A DNA stretch of 43,639 nucleotides from Phycisphaerae bacterium (GCA_018055905.1 JAGPGT010000006.1:1-43639); one strand, 5' to 3'. Shown: positions 33,685 through 43,639, numbered from the stretch's first letter. Numbers and translations: made by a program. The notes: generated from the sequence alone by a model not told the origin.

Positions 33685-36600
33685 TCAATCCGCCGCCTCG
33701 GCGGTGACTTGCACGTCGTCGAGGTTCCAGCCGGGGGCGGTCACCCAATCGTCCGTCGGGCCCATGCCCCAGCGGAAGTAGACCGTCGATTTGCCGTCGG
33801 CGATGCCCGCCGGGACCGCGTACTCCACGTATTGCCAACTCGCGTCCGAGACGTGCGACAGGCCGGTTGTCCAGAGGTCCGTCCACGTCGCGCCGTCGCC
33901 CGACACCTGGACACAAGCGAAATCGTACGGCGCCTCGACGTTGAGCCACCGCCAGAAGCTCAGGCGGATATTCTTGTAGCCTGTACAGTCGATGGGACCG
34001 GTCGTCGCGTACCGCGTCTCGCCCAGGTTGTCGGCGTAGTCGCCCTCGAGGGCGTAGCCGACGACGTTGGCGCCGGTCCGGCCGGAGACGGGGTCCTTGT
34101 CCCAGGAGCCACCGCCTTGCGGCTTGCCCCAGGCCCAGCCTTCATCGAGCGTCCAGCCCGGATCGCTGTCCATGTTCGCATGGTAGATCGCGTTGGAGAC
34201 CACGGTCACCGACGCGCTGCGGGTGGATTGCCGGACGCCGTCGGTCACCAGGAACGAGAGCGTATACGTCTCGAACGCCTGATCGGCCGCGGGCTTCCAG
34301 TGCAGGGTGAGCGTCTCGGGATCGTACCAGGCGCCCTTGGGCAGGTTGCCCACAGACCACCGCAGGGGCAGATCCCCTGGGTTCGAGGCGGTCAGTTGAA
34401 GATCGAGCCGCTCGCCCGGCCGGATCTCGGACGGGGCCGTGATGAAGTCCAAGCGAGGCGCCGGCGCGGTCCATCCGGAGTTCTGCACGTCGTGGCGCGA
34501 CATGCCCCAGTCGATCAGTCCCGCGTCATACGGGACCGGAAGGTCCAGCACGTGGAAACGGTAATCGTCGCCGGCGACGATGATCTCCAGATCGCCGTCG
34601 AGGTCCAGGTCGCTGAGGGTTGGAGTGACTTCATAATCCGCAGACAGATTCATCATCGGAAATCCCGGCGTGATCGAGCCATCGGCCTCCCAGGCCATCA
34701 GGGGCTCGCCGCCGGAACCGACGATCAATTCCTTCTCGCCGTCGCCGTCGATGTCGGCCACCAGCGGCGTGCACCGGCTCGGGTCGCCCATGATCGTCTT
34801 GGGGTACCCTTTCGCGGTCTGCAGTTTGCCTTTGTGGTCGAACGCGTACACGCGAGTGAACAGGAAACCGTCGCCTTCGACGTACGTGGCGACGTACACC
34901 TCGCTCAGGCCGTCGCCGTCGATGTCGCCGATGCACAGGCCGCCGCCGGTGTCAAGCGGATCGTCGGCCCGCGTCTTCCAGACGGTGCTGCCGTCGGCGC
35001 GAACCGCGGTCACTTCGGTTTCCGTGCAGAAGATCATCTCGGTCTTGCCGTCGCCGTCGAGATCGGCGAAGGCGGTCCCCTTGGGACTGCCCCCGCGCCA
35101 GCGCGCGACCTGCTGACCGTTGTGGTCCAGAATGAACGTGTACAGTCGGTTCAGGCCCGGCCCCAGGCCACACAGGGCGATCTCCACGTCGCCATCGCGG
35201 TCGAGGTCGGCCACGCTGATCGGCCCGGCGGCGGTGTAGCGTCGGCGCCACAGGTCGCTGCCGTCGTGCTGCAGGGCGATCAGGCCGTCGGTGCTGCCCG
35301 ACTCCAGATCCAGCGCGACGAGGATTTCGCTGTCGCCGTCGCCGTCGAGATCGGCCAGCACCGGCCCGGCGGCGATGTACCCGTACCAGCCGCCGACCGC
35401 GGCAGGCCAGTTGCCGTCCACGGGCTGACCGCTGTCGACGTGGAAGGCGTAGACTTCGCCGTCCACTTCCGATGCAGCGACCACTTCGTAGTCGCCGTCG
35501 CCGTCGATGTCGCCCACCGCCAGAGACGAAGGCCAGCCGTAATAGCCGACCAGCACCGGCCAGTTCGGCAGCGAATTGCCGTCGGCGTCCCAGAGGTGCA
35601 CCATGCCGCCGGCCCAGTAGGAGTCGAGGTCCACCGCTCCCTGGAGGATCTCGTTGCGACCGTCGCCGTCGACGTCCATGCACAAGGGGCTGCCCATGAA
35701 GTAATAGTAGGAGTACTCTTCGGAATCCGGGTCCTCCGGGAACGGCCAGGGGGCCTGTTCCTTCGCGTCGGTGACGCCGAAAATCCGACGGTCCGTATGA
35801 ACCCGGTCGCCCCGGTTCACACGAATGCGGAGTTCATACGTCCCGGCGCCCGGATTCGGGACAGTCACGCAGAGGATCCCGTTCGGATCGGTCGGCGCAG
35901 CGCCTTCGCCGACGAGCGTCCACTGCTCGCTCCCATACGCGCGGCAATCGAGCTGATATGAATCGCCGTGGACGAATAGGCACAGAGACAACTCGTTCCC
36001 GTCGGCCGGGAAGACCTGGTTGGGCATTGGGGCGAAGATCTCGCTGAGAGGATAGGCTTCGTCCGCCCCTTTCAGGGCCTTGTAGGCGTTGACCCGCCCG
36101 GTTCCGATGTAACCGAGATCGGAATCCAGGTCGCCGTAGTAGATCGGGTCTGTCGTGTTTTCCAGGATGGCCCGGACCTGCACGTGGGTCAGTTCGGGTC
36201 GATGCGCGAGCAGCAGTGCCCCGACGGCCGCCACATAGGGCGAGGAGAACGACGTCCCGGCCGTCGAGATGTACTGACCGTTGACGTCCGTCGTCACGAT
36301 GTCGGTCCCAGGCGCCGCGATGTCCACCCAGGACCCGAAGGTACTGTGTCCGGTCTTGGTGTCCTCGCCGTTGGTGGAGGCGACCGCCAGGACGTTGGGA
36401 TAGGCCGCGGGGTAGTGCGGCCGGCTGGAATCCGAGTTGCCCGCGCTGGCGACCAGGAGCACGCCTTTCTCATAGACGTTGTCGATGGCTGCTTTGACGA
36501 CCGGATCGCCCTCGGGCCCGAAGACGTCGCCACCGAAACTCATGTTGACGACGCGGGCGCCGTTGGCCGCGGCGTAGTCCAACGCGTCGGCGATCTCATT

Positions 36601-37497
36601 CGATTTATACTGTACTTCGAGCACCATGATACTGCACTGCCAGTTCACCCCGCAGACGCCCTTGCCGTTGTTGCCGACGGCCCCGATCACGCCGGCGACC
36701 TCGGTCTCGTGCTCATGCACCGGCGTCATGTCGTGGCTGCCGGCGGCGAAATCCCATCCGTGGAGATCGTCCACGTATCCGTTGCCGTCGTCGTCGATCT
36801 TGTTGCCGGCGATCTCACCGGGGTTGATCCAGATGTTGTCTTTGAGGTCGGGATGGTTCACGTCGACGCCGGTCCCGAGAACGGCCACCACGATGTCCTG
36901 GCTCCCGGTCGAGATGTCCCAGGCGTCTTCCATCTGGATCAGTTGATGGGCGTATTGATCGGGAAACTCCGGATCGTTGGGCGTCTTACACGGACGATAA
37001 AGATAATTGGGTTGGGCAACCTCCACCGCGGGATCGCGCTGGAGTTCGGCGCATACCGTCGGCACGTCGCGGTCGGTCTTGAGCACGTAGAATCCCAGCA
37101 ACGCCTCGGAGCGGGCGAACGTTTCGTCGGCCGACGCGATGCCCAAGGGGCCTTGCGAGCCCTTCTGCCTCGCCTGCTCGTGAACGCGTTTGAACACAGG
37201 TCCCTGGCTCTGCACGCCGTACGTCGAGTGCAGTCGCGAGAGATTCGCCCGGTCGCGTTGGAGAATCGCATCTTCCGACAAGGCGCCAATTGCACCGCCC
37301 TGCGAGCCTCTGAGCTTGACGATCACCTCACCGACGACGAAATGGGGGCGCGATACGAATGGCCCAGCCACTTTGTCCGGCGCATCCGTCTGCGAATCGC
37401 CAATCGCTTCCGCACCGACCGCAGCGTTGGCCAACGCCACCACGCCCACCAGGACTCGTACCCTCATACTCCACGCGCTTGCGCTGAAGATGCCCAT
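33685..37497 (-). CDS. Very large secreted S8 subtilase with FG-GAP propeller, catalytic Asp lost
   Basis: The 1270-residue product has a signal peptide (about 1-28), a propeptide, an S8 domain (about 190-480), a beta-sandwich region, about eight FG-GAP/VCBS-type repeats each with a D-x-D-x-D-G loop (such as VGDIDGDGDYEVV and VADIDGDGEKELIV), an Ig-like module and a C-terminal domain resembling MAM/lectin-like modules. The Ser (S416 in AGTSFSSP) and His (H263 in HETEVAGV) remain. The usual Asp-Thr-Gly reads VAVLGTGVD, so G208 (codon GGG) replaces Asp. ATG 37497 (GGGAG, 7-nt spacer) is preferred; ATG 37518 and GTG 37542 are alternatives. A promoter lies upstream. Confidence 0.88.
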   Translation of the reverse strand: MGIFSASAWSMRVRVLVGVVALANAAVGAEAIGDSQTDAPDKVAGPFVSRPHFVVGEVIVKLRGSQGGAIGALSEDAILQRDRANLSRLHSTYGVQSQGPVFKRVHEQARQKGSQGPLGIASADETFARSEALLGFYVLKTDRDVPTVCAELQRDPAVEVAQPNYLYRPCKTPNDPEFPDQYAHQLIQMEDAWDISTGSQDIVVAVLGTGVDVNHPDLKDNIWINPGEIAGNKIDDDGNGYVDDLHGWDFAAGSHDMTPVHEHETEVAGVIGAVGNNGKGVCGVNWQCSIMVLEVQYKSNEIADALDYAAANGARVVNMSFGGDVFGPEGDPVVKAAIDNVYEKGVLLVASAGNSDSSRPHYPAAYPNVLAVASTNGEDTKTGHSTFGSWVDIAAPGTDIVTTDVNGQYISTAGTSFSSPYVAAVGALLLAHRPELTHVQVRAILENTTDPIYYGDLDSDLGYIGTGRVNAYKALKGADEAYPLSEIFAPMPNQVFPADGNELSLCLFVHGDSYQLDCRAYGSEQWTLVGEGAAPTDPNGILCVTVPNPGAGTYELRIRVNRGDRVHTDRRIFGVTDAKEQAPWPFPEDPDSEEYSYYYFMGSPLCMDVDGDGRNEILQGAVDLDSYWAGGMVHLWDADGNSLPNWPVLVGYYGWPSSLAVGDIDGDGDYEVVAASEVDGEVYAFHVDSGQPVDGNWPAAVGGWYGYIAAGPVLADLDGDGDSEILVALDLESGSTDGLIALQHDGSDLWRRRYTAAGPISVADLDRDGDVEIALCGLGPGLNRLYTFILDHNGQQVARWRGGSPKGTAFADLDGDGKTEMIFCTETEVTAVRADGSTVWKTRADDPLDTGGGLCIGDIDGDGLSEVYVATYVEGDGFLFTRVYAFDHKGKLQTAKGYPKTIMGDPSRCTPLVADIDGDGEKELIVGSGGEPLMAWEADGSITPGFPMMNLSADYEVTPTLSDLDLDGDLEIIVAGDDYRFHVLDLPVPYDAGLIDWGMSRHDVQNSGWTAPAPRLDFITAPSEIRPGERLDLQLTASNPGDLPLRWSVGNLPKGAWYDPETLTLHWKPAADQAFETYTLSFLVTDGVRQSTRSASVTVVSNAIYHANMDSDPGWTLDEGWAWGKPQGGGSWDKDPVSGRTGANVVGYALEGDYADNLGETRYATTGPIDCTGYKNIRLSFWRWLNVEAPYDFACVQVSGDGATWTDLWTTGLSHVSDASWQYVEYAVPAGIADGKSTVYFRWGMGPTDDWVTAPGWNLDDVQVTAEAAD

Positions 37498-37569
37498 GCT
37501 GTTTCTCCCAAGCTCCATTATGTCGCCTCGCCTCAGAGCCACGACTCCGCGTCCACGAGGTTTAGTTCT

Positions 37570-38836: not shown

Positions 38837-39241
38837 TCAACAGGCAACGCCGCAGAGATGGCGGCCGTATCGCTTGTCCTCCTGCTGAATATGATGGACA
38901 AGCCAGTCCCGCAGGAAGTTGCCGACGCCGACGGAGGTGACCATCTTGCCGGCTTGGATCTTTTCCTGCATTTCGACGACCTTGGCAGTGAAGTGCTCGT
39001 GCAGTTGCTTGTGCGCAGCCAAAGCAGGGTACTGACGCGAGGCCAACAGACGCTCCTCGGATGCAAAGTGCACTTTCGTGTAGGTCACCAATTCGTTGAC
39101 GATCGTCTTGAGGACCACAGCCCCCTCGCCTTTGGCCATCGCTTCGTGCAGACGATTGATCATCTCGACCAGCCTCTTGTGTTGGGTGTCCATTTCCAGC
39201 ACACCGACCGATAACTGTTCATTCCACTCGACCAACGCCAT
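38837..39241 (-). CDS. Bacteriohemerythrin
   Basis: The 134-residue protein is a single hemerythrin domain with the diiron ligand pattern: DTQHKRL, HFASEERLL, HKQLHEHF and DWLVHHIQQEDKRYG. Single-domain bacteriohemerythrins bind O2 reversibly and serve in O2 storage, delivery or sensing. MALVEWNEQLSVGV is the standard N-terminus of the family. GGAGGAG precedes ATG 39241. It stands alone between a GDPD gene and the sigma-factor fusion; its 5' region carries the hairpin at 39407-39468. Confidence 0.95.
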   Translation of the reverse strand: MALVEWNEQLSVGVLEMDTQHKRLVEMINRLHEAMAKGEGAVVLKTIVNELVTYTKVHFASEERLLASRQYPALAAHKQLHEHFTAKVVEMQEKIQAGKMVTSVGVGNFLRDWLVHHIQQEDKRYGRHLCGVAC

Positions 39242-39534: not shown

Positions 39535-42500
39535 TCAGTTGCGGTCAAGGCAGATCACGAGGTTTTGCGGCCGGCCGACATAGGGATCGAACGGCCTGAC
39601 GTTCACCTTTTTCGAGATGCCCTGGCGCCCCCCGGCTTGCACGTTCAGAACGTGCGAACCCGGCACCGTGAGAAAACCCCGACCGATAGTATCTATATAC
39701 ACAGGCTCGACTGCGCCGAAGGGGCCATCGAGCCGGATTTGCGCGTCGTCACGAACCCAGCCGCGTTCATCGACCACCTGCACGAGCAGAAAGCCCGTCT
39801 GTCCGGCCGACGCATTGGACAAGTCCAGATCGAACGGCGTGTCCCCTTCCTCGTGCAACTGCACCTCCGCAATCGGGGGCACATCATAGAACGCGCACGA
39901 GATCTCTCCGATGAAATACCGACCCGCCGGCAACCGTTGGACGCGATAGCTGCCGTCCGAGGCGGGCTGCACCACCGCAAGGACATCCTTCTGCCGGCGC
40001 CACAGAACGAGCGTGCGGGCACCGACGCCGCGAACGAAGCCGGCGACACCCGCCTTCCAGACCGGCAGATCGACCGTCAGTTCCCATCGGGCCCTGCCGG
40101 CGTCCAGCGTCACGGTCTTCTGCCAGAGCGTCTGGTCCCGGCGTCTGACGTTCAGCACGTAATCGCCGGGCTCGACGCCCTTGACCACGTAGGGCTCGCC
40201 CGCCGCCGACGGAGCCTCGGCGATCCCCGTCGGCGTGGACCCAAGCCTCTGCCCTTTCGTCAGAAAGACGCTGTCGATCCCCCAGCCGTCGGCGGCGTCT
40301 GCGCCGTTCAACGTCACGTACAGATTCGACGCGTTGGGAGGCAGAACGCCCACATCCGTGTCGGCGTCTGCCACGGTCACCGTCCCAACGACAAGCCACG
40401 AGTTGCGTTCGGCGGACTGCCGGCGGTAAATGCTGTACACGCCGGGCAGGGCGCCGCCGAAAGTGAATCCCCCCTGTGCATCGGTTGTCGCATAGCAGGT
40501 GAACGCGCCCGAATGCGGCGAGCGGGCCGGCCCGATCAGCAGCCGGGCCCCGGCCAGCGGGACGCCGTCGATGACCACCCGACCTCGAACCACAGGAACG
40601 CCGCCCAGATCCACACGAACGACCTGCCCATCGCGCGGCGCCGCCATCCGGCACACGACGCCCTGTCCCTGCCACTTGTTGATCCTCTGGACGTAACACA
40701 ACTCCGCAGGAAGATGTTCGATGCGATAGAAACCGTCGGCGTCCGTGACGGCCTGGCCCAAACGACCGGCCGCCTCGTCGCCCAATCCCAGGTAGTCCAC
40801 AGCGTCCTGGACATAGATCACCTGTCCGGCCTCGGGCCTGCCCTGGAGGTCATAGACGGTTCCCTCGATCGTGCCGCCTGCGGCGAGGACCACCTCGACG
40901 TTCGCGCCGGCTCGGCCCGCCACGACGGGAATTCCCTCGACGATGCGAGGCGCATAATCGGGATGGACCACTCGGATCGTCTCGGTTCCTGCGGGCATGT
41001 GGGCGAATGTGAAGGCGCCATTCACAGTCTCGACTGCCCCGCTCTGGTCCATGAACACGTCCTCGATCTCCGTCATGTTCCCGCCGGCCACGGACAGCGG
41101 AACGACAGTTGCGCCGTTGATGGGCTCGCCCTTTTGGTTCACTACCCGACCCGAGATCGAGCCCCCGGTCGAGAGAGCCACGACGACGTTCCTGAGCGCA
41201 TCGGTGCTGATCGGCTCGCTCCACGCCGTGGCGTATCCCTGGGCAGTCACCTGCACCTGGTAGACCCCTGGGCCTACGAGGTCGGCGATGAAGTCCCCCC
41301 GTTCGTTCTCGAAATCCACCCACCGATTCGGCTGAACATACAGCGGGCCGCGCAGAGAGCGAAGCTTCTTGACGCGAATTCGAAAGTGCTTGATGGGTTG
41401 GCCGTTCTGGGCGTCCACGACGTTGCCCGCCAGTTCCAGCCGGGTGATGTAGTTCAGATCGACCCGCAGATCGGAGCACGGCGCCACCACATTGTCGATC
41501 GTCGTCTCCTCGATGTTCTCGCCGGAGAAGGTCAAGCTGTAGACGCCCGGCTCCAATCGCTCGATCGCGAAGGCGTCTTCCAGTCGTCCGTCGGGCTTGC
41601 GTGTGACATCCAGGAAAATGTAGGCGCCGCTCGGGGACATCATCGTGATCCGCACGGAATCAGGCATCTTCTCGCCGTGAAAGACCAGAAACCCGCGAAT
41701 CGAAGCCAGCGACTGTGGCGACTTGCCGGGCAGCCGCACAACGAGCGGCTCGTCACCGGGCCAGGGGAGCTGGGCCCGCATGACCTTCTGGCTCATGAAT
41801 CCTGTGTCGCTCGTGGGCGTCCGCACCGAGAGGTCGTACCAATCTTCGACGATGTGGTTGAACGTGAGTGTCCCGTCGTCCGAGGTTCTGTACCCCGGCA
41901 ATCCGTAAGTGCAATGCCACCAGGTGGGCGCGATCTCAATCTCGGTGTTGGCCGCAGGCGCGCCGTCGGAGTATTCCACGCGAGCCTGCACCGGTGCGCC
42001 TCGCTCCAGCACGATCCGGACCTGGCGAACGATGTTGGGGTCCGTCAGTCGAACGGTCGTCCGCGCCGGCGCATAGTCGCACTCGCTGCGGGTGTACAGC
42101 CGTCCCTCGCGTTCCTCGACACCCACCGGGATGGTCCGCCACGCGGTGATCAGATAGTCCGTATCGGCCGGCGGGAACCCGCCCAGCAGGAGATAGCCGT
42201 TGGGGTCTGTGGTGCGGGTGTACACCGACCGATTCACCTCTCTCATCCGGTCGTCGGCCAGCAGCGTCCCCACCACCGTGGCGCCGGGGATCCCCGCGCC
42301 GTCGGCATCGACCACCCACACATCGACCATGCAGGCCTTGTGTAAGCGGAAGTGCCTGACGATCTGCGCATCAGGGCTCAGGTTCACGCTCAAGGCGCCG
42401 TCGTCCTGCGAGCCCCCCAGATACGCCTCGCAGGAGACGGCAATGTTGTAGACACCTGCTTCTTCGATCCGGTCGAGGGCATAGAAGCCGTTGGCGTCGG

Positions 42501-43608
42501 TGATCGTCGTGTAGACGTTTCGCAGGGAGACGGTCAGACGCGCCCCCTGCACCGGTTCGCCGGTCTCGATGTCGGTGACCCGACCGCTGAGCACGCCGCG
42601 GGGTTCAAACTCACTCCCGTCGGTCGCAATCGCGATTCGCGATCGGCGGTCTCTGACGACGGTCGTCGTCCGAACGGACGCGGCGGCGCCGGAAGTCTCT
42701 GAATCGCCGGCAAGTTTGCCCGCCGGCGTCGTGTCAGGTTCCGTCGCCACGACAGACAGAGCAGCGTCCGACGGCGCCTCTCCGACAGACTCGACCACCA
42801 CGGACCGGCCGGCCGGTTCTTTCGTGTCGTTCATCTGCTTGTAGGCGACGATTCCCCCCGCCAGGATCACAGCCCCGACCGCCACCGCGGTTACCTTGGC
42901 CGTCAGGCCGGAGAGGACCGATGCGGCGCCGTACGACCCACCCACCGCTGCAGCAGCGGTCCCGGTGCCCTTCAGGCCCAGCGAGACAATCGAAGCGATG
43001 ACGGCCGCAGTGAAGGCCTTTCCCGGTCGGGTCCCGGCGATGGTGTTCTCGATCATGTCGGCCATCTGCTCCCGCAGCAGGCTGCGTCCACGGTAGATCC
43101 TCTGTCGGGCGGCCTCCTCGGTCAAACCCAACTGGGCAGCCACTTCCCGCGTCGACTTGCCCTCGCGGTAGAAAAGGACCAGGGGCTCTCGGACCCCTTC
43201 CGGCATCTGAGCGAGCGCTTGCCTGATCAGCGCCTGCTGTTCCTCGAACATCACCACCTCCTCGGGTCCGGACTCGCGAGAGATCGTCTCGCTCGCGGCC
43301 TCCAGCGAGGCTGCCCGGCCCACCACGTCCCGTCCCTGGCTGCGAAACCAGTTCTGCACTGTGTTCCGGGCGATGCTGCACAGCCAGGCCCGGAACTTGC
43401 CCAGATCCTGAAGTTGACCGAGGCCCTTCCAGGCCCGGACGAAGGCGTCCTGCGCCAGCTCCTCGCTCCGCCCGGAATCCCCAGTAGCCGCATAGGTGAT
43501 CGCACAAACGAGCGACTGATACCGTCCCACGACGACGCCAAACGCCTGGGCGTTGCCCTCGCGGCTGGCTTTTAGCAGGTCGATATCACTTTTCCACCGG
43601 TCAAACAT
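39535..43608 (-). CDS. ECF sigma factor fused to membrane segment and carboxypeptidase-regulatory-like modules
   Basis: The 1357-residue protein begins with an ECF sigma factor: region 2 (about 22-90; GRYQSLVCAITYAATGDSG, ELAQDAFVRAWK, RAWLCSIARNTVQNWFR) and region 4 (about 125-180; MPEGVREPLVLFYREGKST, then an HTH, EVAAQLGLTEEAARQRIYRG). A hydrophobic stretch at about 198-257, with one clear helix (AVAVGAVILAGGIVAYK), follows. The remaining 1100 residues hold about eight to ten beta-sandwich modules of the carboxypeptidase-regulatory type (such as LSGRVTDIETGEPVQGARL and GSISGRVVNQKGEPINGA). If the helix spans the membrane, the modules lie outside and the sigma part inside. ATG 43608 follows AGGA at 8 nt; the frame remains open to the window edge, so a longer start cannot be excluded. 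Confidence 0.9.
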   Translation of the reverse strand: MFDRWKSDIDLLKASREGNAQAFGVVVGRYQSLVCAITYAATGDSGRSEELAQDAFVRAWKGLGQLQDLGKFRAWLCSIARNTVQNWFRSQGRDVVGRAASLEAASETISRESGPEEVVMFEEQQALIRQALAQMPEGVREPLVLFYREGKSTREVAAQLGLTEEAARQRIYRGRSLLREQMADMIENTIAGTRPGKAFTAAVIASIVSLGLKGTGTAAAAVGGSYGAASVLSGLTAKVTAVAVGAVILAGGIVAYKQMNDTKEPAGRSVVVESVGEAPSDAALSVVATEPDTTPAGKLAGDSETSGAAASVRTTTVVRDRRSRIAIATDGSEFEPRGVLSGRVTDIETGEPVQGARLTVSLRNVYTTITDANGFYALDRIEEAGVYNIAVSCEAYLGGSQDDGALSVNLSPDAQIVRHFRLHKACMVDVWVVDADGAGIPGATVVGTLLADDRMREVNRSVYTRTTDPNGYLLLGGFPPADTDYLITAWRTIPVGVEEREGRLYTRSECDYAPARTTVRLTDPNIVRQVRIVLERGAPVQARVEYSDGAPAANTEIEIAPTWWHCTYGLPGYRTSDDGTLTFNHIVEDWYDLSVRTPTSDTGFMSQKVMRAQLPWPGDEPLVVRLPGKSPQSLASIRGFLVFHGEKMPDSVRITMMSPSGAYIFLDVTRKPDGRLEDAFAIERLEPGVYSLTFSGENIEETTIDNVVAPCSDLRVDLNYITRLELAGNVVDAQNGQPIKHFRIRVKKLRSLRGPLYVQPNRWVDFENERGDFIADLVGPGVYQVQVTAQGYATAWSEPISTDALRNVVVALSTGGSISGRVVNQKGEPINGATVVPLSVAGGNMTEIEDVFMDQSGAVETVNGAFTFAHMPAGTETIRVVHPDYAPRIVEGIPVVAGRAGANVEVVLAAGGTIEGTVYDLQGRPEAGQVIYVQDAVDYLGLGDEAAGRLGQAVTDADGFYRIEHLPAELCYVQRINKWQGQGVVCRMAAPRDGQVVRVDLGGVPVVRGRVVIDGVPLAGARLLIGPARSPHSGAFTCYATTDAQGGFTFGGALPGVYSIYRRQSAERNSWLVVGTVTVADADTDVGVLPPNASNLYVTLNGADAADGWGIDSVFLTKGQRLGSTPTGIAEAPSAAGEPYVVKGVEPGDYVLNVRRRDQTLWQKTVTLDAGRARWELTVDLPVWKAGVAGFVRGVGARTLVLWRRQKDVLAVVQPASDGSYRVQRLPAGRYFIGEISCAFYDVPPIAEVQLHEEGDTPFDLDLSNASAGQTGFLLVQVVDERGWVRDDAQIRLDGPFGAVEPVYIDTIGRGFLTVPGSHVLNVQAGGRQGISKKVNVRPFDPYVGRPQNLVICLDRN

Positions 43609-43639
43609 CGTGCGAGTCCTGTCAAGGAAGGCTCCCAAT

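Follow-up and report, generated by a model that had tools for sequence, protein, structure and literature searches.

The gene at the right end of the 43,639-nucleotide stretch of Phycisphaerae bacterium DNA analysed here (the window; GCA_018055905.1, JAGPGT010000006.1) encodes an ECF sigma factor joined in one chain to a predicted membrane helix and a large module array. We consider it somewhat better than an even bet that this is a one-protein device, in which a cytoplasmic ECF sigma part is connected by one transmembrane (TM) helix to an outer sensor array, is released by proteolysis and activates its own gene. The architecture, the single-span topology, a regulatory link between array and sigma factor and a conserved promoter element each have support from the sequences.

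The open frame runs on the minus strand from an ATG at 43608 to a stop at 39535 and encodes 1357 residues with no internal stop. Orthologues of equal length were found at 75, 71, 50 and 46% identity, and remoter ones at about 30%. Against the two nearest orthologues, dN/dS was 0.08 for the sigma part, 0.17 for the linker and TM helix and 0.23–0.26 for the modules, and the disordered residues 266–335 evolve fast (0.56–0.59). Since full-length orthologues and low dN/dS exclude chance, the frame is, judged from its sequence, a real single gene. An assembly or frameshift artefact is ruled out by the orthologues, by purifying selection and by a related fusion of 1352 residues (L065) on a 6.5-Mb single-contig chromosome (CP070782.1). 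The preliminary description had placed sigma part and modules together in one open frame, and this single frame is kept across orthologues with no frameshift separating the two. In one relative (L072:3953-7844), the sigma part and the start of the array share a frame and the remaining array lies in an overlapping second frame, a frameshift that is either genuine or derived from sequencing. The window is an entire contig (C38) of a genome in 352 contigs that is 86% complete, and because the contig stops 31 bases before the ATG, the promoter and the upstream neighbour were read from orthologues.

Table 1. Features of the sigma factor gene and its 5' flank in the window.
Feature	Residues	Position	Strand	Basis or remark
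Whole gene: ECF sigma factor, TM helix, module array	1–1357 + stop	39535..43608	-	Orthologues; purifying selection
Residual upstream bases (31)		43609..43639	-	TGTCAC-N14-GGTTTCT expected about 75 bases upstream, past the contig end
Sigma region 2	27–93	43330..43530	-	PF04542 Sigma70_r2, E 7e-15
Sigma region 4	127–177	43078..43230	-	PF08281 Sigma70_r4_2, E 4e-12
PGKAFT juxtamembrane helix, conserved	197–215	42964..43020	-	Judged cytoplasmic, not membrane-spanning
Predicted single TM helix	~237–257	42838..42900	-	Hydropathy; AlphaFold2 helix 241–261; hydrophobicity and charge statistics
Disordered, fast-evolving juxtamembrane linker	262–335	42604..42825	-	Low pLDDT; dN/dS 0.56–0.59
Putative extracytoplasmic beta-sandwich array, CarboxypepD_reg-like	336–1357	39538..42603	-	Pfam; AlphaFold2 all-beta; homologous arrays in separate membrane proteins

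With PF04542 and PF08281 both over their cut-offs, the protein is assigned to the ECF (group 4) sigma factors. TIGR02937 scores 92 bits (cut-off 43), and TIGR02989, the Rhodopirellula/Verrucomicrobium ECF subfamily, scores 82.9 bits, under its curated cut-off of 124.55. AlphaFold2 models the sigma part confidently, with helices at 164–193, 197–215 and 241–261 and disorder from about residue 266, and by Foldseek the sigma part groups with solved ECF factors. The model is closer by rmsd to ECF structures bound to an anti-sigma factor than to those bound to polymerase, to which we give no weight because models of free sigma factors tend towards compactness. Sigma regions 2 and 4, a hydrophobic stretch and the modules, all named in the preliminary description, were thus recovered; the array is shorter than described there, about 1020 residues rather than 1100.

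The most hydrophobic 19-mer of the protein lies at residues 237–255 (Kyte-Doolittle mean 2.04), and a membrane helix, earlier proposed near 238–257, is indeed predicted at 237–257 from hydropathy, the AlphaFold2 model and charge statistics. It is preceded by another hydrophobic segment with the pattern PGKAFTxAVxA, in which P195 and F199 are invariant across 54 relatives and which is conserved across all types of C-terminal part, polytopic members included; in many of the latter, a proline occurs about 12 residues into this first segment. Among 27 single-span members, the mean insertion score (lower is better) was 0.66 for the second segment and 3.35 for the first, on an approximate scale with a simplified weighting made for this analysis. 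In the same members, the loop between the segments carries 2.3 Lys + Arg versus 0.3 Asp + Glu, and Lys238 is nearly invariant in relatives. Because of the insertion scores, the positive loop and the near-invariant lysine, we favour a single span with the sigma part inside and the array outside. We read the first segment more probably as a helix on the cytoplasmic side, perhaps with a coupling function.

Pfam CarboxypepD_reg matches the array in six stretches (E 1e-55), and AlphaFold2 predicts beta strands throughout with moderate confidence, residues 266–331 being disordered. Foldseek returned multi-domain beta-sandwich proteins (pilins, SdrD, alpha-2-macroglobulins), which indicate the fold class only, because TM-scores were very low; the nearest solved protein by sequence is NOMO2 of the BOS complex. 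A profile of the array found matches in 39 of the 161 genomes of the window's order, and we inspected 20 array loci closely. Five are fused to a TM-type sigma factor (L175, L180, L185, L188, L189), 12 are split, and three (L171, L172, L176) are masked or cut such that their layout is unreadable. At the split loci a separate sigma gene, only partly matched in L182, directly precedes or overlaps the gene of the array protein, which consists of a short N-terminus, one TM helix, a HEAT-like helical stretch and then the array. Three split proteins have a zinc-finger HxxxCxxC N-terminus (L173, together with L049 and L050, which came from an initial search for relatives and lie outside the 20 loci), matching zf-HC2 with E values of 0.004 to 0.0006, under the curated cut-off. 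The remaining split N-termini gave no convincing Pfam match; six of them beside sigma genes (L178, L181, L183, L184, L187, L190) are short, fall into at least two sequence types and may be undescribed anti-sigma domains.

The genome of L048 also encodes array forms bearing signal peptides; a frame there taken for a sigma gene (L048:11762-12301) is actually a cobalamin adenosyltransferase. Taken together, the fused and split loci and the signal-peptide forms mark the array as an outer part found with sigma factors in two layouts. A tree of the arrays needs several changes between fused and split forms, and a single origin of the fused forms was not rejected (AU p 0.0996). The outer part had been proposed to sense cell-surface or glycan signals; its sensory role gains support from arrays in single-span proteins beside sigma genes, and glycan signals found none.

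We then consider whether a separate inhibitor accompanies the gene. Within 5 kb of 11 fused genes (the window's, which contributes only 31 bases upstream, and ten others), no frame encoding a membrane protein carries a zinc-finger anti-sigma motif; the motif occurred only in frames lacking a TM helix, and both split controls were positive. This bears out the earlier remark that no anti-sigma gene is visible beside the window gene. The gene itself does not conceal such a zinc finger either, as far as Pfam shows, with no match in residues 183–266 or over the whole protein. The upstream neighbours in three annotated relatives are a restriction-modification pair, an acetyltransferase and an S9 peptidase, and these differences speak against a conserved operon partner. 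Downstream of the sigma gene, the window encodes a bacteriohemerythrin-like protein (38837-39241, minus strand), followed at some distance by a large subtilase-like protein (33685-37542, minus strand). Subtilases of the S8 type recur in two other genomes, close to the sigma gene in G004 and as its immediate downstream neighbour in G005.

In a tree of 50 sigma domains, those followed by a TM helix, which we call TM-sigma factors, form one clade whatever their C-terminal part (SH-aLRT 96, quick search), and the sigma factors of split systems fall outside it at several places. The window protein belongs here by its sigma domain, within the clade of support 96, and by its conserved linker and TM helix. 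The family is a grouping defined in this work, and the architecture may have been described earlier. The family has members in three phyla, Planctomycetota, Verrucomicrobiota and Hydrogenedentota. It is represented in 9 of 392 genomes drawn evenly from the window's phylum (E below 1e-45) and in 46 of 161 genomes of its order; as all occurrence rates come from related sequences, significance figures are indicative. The C-terminal part is a polytopic membrane domain in 52 of 85 frames, and other types are module arrays, leucine-rich repeats, an M16 peptidase and AhpC/TSA ends. Among individual members, L094:229-2850 joins a TM-sigma factor and a membrane part to the M16 domain, a possible protease on the sigma factor's own chain; L098 (6619-9576 and 2767-6375), a Hydrogenedentota contig, has adjacent TM-sigma genes, the former with a leucine-rich-repeat outer part; and the module arrays of L075:6956-10900 and L080:5228-9061 end in an AhpC/TSA (thioredoxin-like) domain.

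The element TGTCAC-N14-GGTTTCT lies upstream of the window's orthologues, 75–78 bases before the ATG where measured, and an element of the TGTCAC type is present in both the 75% and the 71% orthologue. Of 84 TM-sigma genes, 58 carry TGTCAC 25–110 bases upstream, where mononucleotide shuffling predicts 1.7; its position is -54 to -58 in most Verrucomicrobiota and, for the greater part, -68 to -78 in Planctomycetota. In a hold-out set of genes unused in motif discovery it was found in 8 of 11 (0.18 expected), and among controls in none of 11 split sigma genes and 2 of 19 plain ECF genes. The -10-like heptamer varies with the class of extension in Planctomycetota, with an identity of 0.64 within and 0.46 between classes (permutation test 0/2000, uncorrected for relatedness). 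At L076:2983-8437 a TM-sigma gene for a module-array form stands in tandem with one for a polytopic form, and the two have TGTCAC elements of their own with differing -10-like parts. A record titled Proteobacteria (L121, RFSE01000189.1) holds a TM-sigma gene that, with its promoter spacing (-57), looks Verrucomicrobial; the record may be mislabelled.

The exact motif of the window's clade has a single site in each of seven genomes, in every case 20–52 bases before a called TM-sigma start. It is absent from the assembly of the window's genome, as expected with the contig ending 31 bases 5' of the ATG. Allowing up to one mismatch, eight genomes gave 33 matches versus 22 for a reversed control pattern, or 26 versus 22 without the seven own-promoter sites, and most of the others lie inside long frames; a wider regulon was rejected on these counts. 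The motif search of the eight genomes thus detected no targets beyond the sigma gene itself, and so gives no explanation of what the switch puts out. The simplest reading of the element is that the sigma factor reads it itself, which would amount to self-activation, although another sigma factor could do so.

In light of these data, we propose that the sigma part would be inactive while tethered to the membrane, possibly aided by the PGKAFT helix. On sensing a signal, the array would make the disordered segment next to the membrane accessible to a site-1 protease. A second cut within the membrane, by a site-2 (M50/RseP-like) protease, would then free the sigma part to bind RNA polymerase and transcribe from TGTCAC-N14-GGTTTCT, its own promoter first. 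The inactive tethered state, the proteolysis, the direct reading of the protein's own promoter and the kind of signal are inferred here. M50 proteases are found in the window's genome, which says little because they are near-universal.

The closest precedent is IutY of Pseudomonas putida (ECF243), in which a sigma factor, one TM helix and a periplasmic domain form one chain, activated through proteolysis by Prc and RseP (PMC5411451). The window protein resembles it in joining a sigma factor, a predicted single TM helix and a putative outer regulatory domain without a zinc-finger domain, but it has a long CarboxypepD_reg-like array, belongs to another sigma clade and is not an ECF243 member; no FecR family matched it in Pfam at E up to 1. 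ECF48, ECF52 (SCO4117) and ECF53 of Actinobacteria, fusions of sigma factor, zinc finger and TM helix, are expected to be activated by proteolysis, and ECF52 has an outer carbohydrate-binding domain (PMC8999054). They share the C-terminal TM extension, but theirs includes a zinc finger, likely an anti-sigma domain, and reaches about 400 residues, whereas that of the window protein lacks a zinc finger and spans about 1170. ECF57 and other planctomycete ECFs also have large C-terminal extensions (WD40), for which protein interaction has been proposed (PMC8999054); the window protein is likewise a planctomycete ECF with a large C-terminal part, but lacks WD40 repeats and has its two parts divided by a membrane span. 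The canonical pair of an ECF and a ZAS-type TM anti-sigma factor is instead resembled by the split homologues L049, L050 and L173, where a sigma gene accompanies a membrane protein with a weak zf-HC2 N-terminus, one TM helix and a homologous array; the window protein lacks an anti-sigma domain and unites sigma and outer part in a single chain.

Of the ways in which such a protein could work, proteolytic release appears the most likely and action in place the next. CadC and ToxR are regulators that act without release from the membrane, and the tethered sigma part might similarly load RNA polymerase at membrane-near promoters, with the array gating it through oligomerisation or changes in the juxtamembrane helix. 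An apparent strict target set as tiny as one exact site per genome suits a tethered regulator, as does a juxtamembrane helix conserved across all C-terminal types, but the disordered, fast-evolving stretch outside the membrane and the IutY precedent fit proteolysis better. To our knowledge no sigma factor acts in place, and we regard this reading as rather doubtful.

We find it unlikely that both hydrophobic segments cross the membrane as a hairpin, which would keep the array inside the cell, as an extension that serves regulation or scaffolding there. Segment 198–216 is hydrophobic (Kyte-Doolittle 1.42) and modelled as a helix, and the later loops of polytopic relatives are hard to reconcile with one span; however, the insertion scores and the charge of the loop disfavour two spans, as do the proline in many polytopic members and the outer or secreted location of homologous arrays. 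Less probable still is an ordinary ECF factor whose conventional anti-sigma factor is encoded at another locus and whose tail is a chance-fused surface protein without a control role. The genome is fragmented and incomplete and orphan regulators are possible, but this explanation sits poorly with the negative zinc-finger scan around the 11 fused genes, the unrelated upstream neighbours in relatives, the split homologues whose array belongs to the sigma factor's own membrane partner, and the conservation of the fusion under purifying selection.

Beyond this gene, we suggest tentatively, at rather less than even confidence, that the TM-sigma factors are a widespread class of membrane-tethered ECF factors in Planctomycetota and Verrucomicrobiota that operate free of an anti-sigma factor, with sensing outside, a dedicated promoter of their own and an exchangeable outer or membrane module. 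ECF signalling typically relies on a sigma factor and a separate anti-sigma factor. Homologous outer sensors occur in both fused and split layouts inside one bacterial order, and therefore the contribution of the anti-sigma domain, and how a sigma factor is controlled without one, become directly testable, with the conserved promoter element as a ready reporter. The TM-sigma family thereby offers units of sensor and sigma factor from a single gene.
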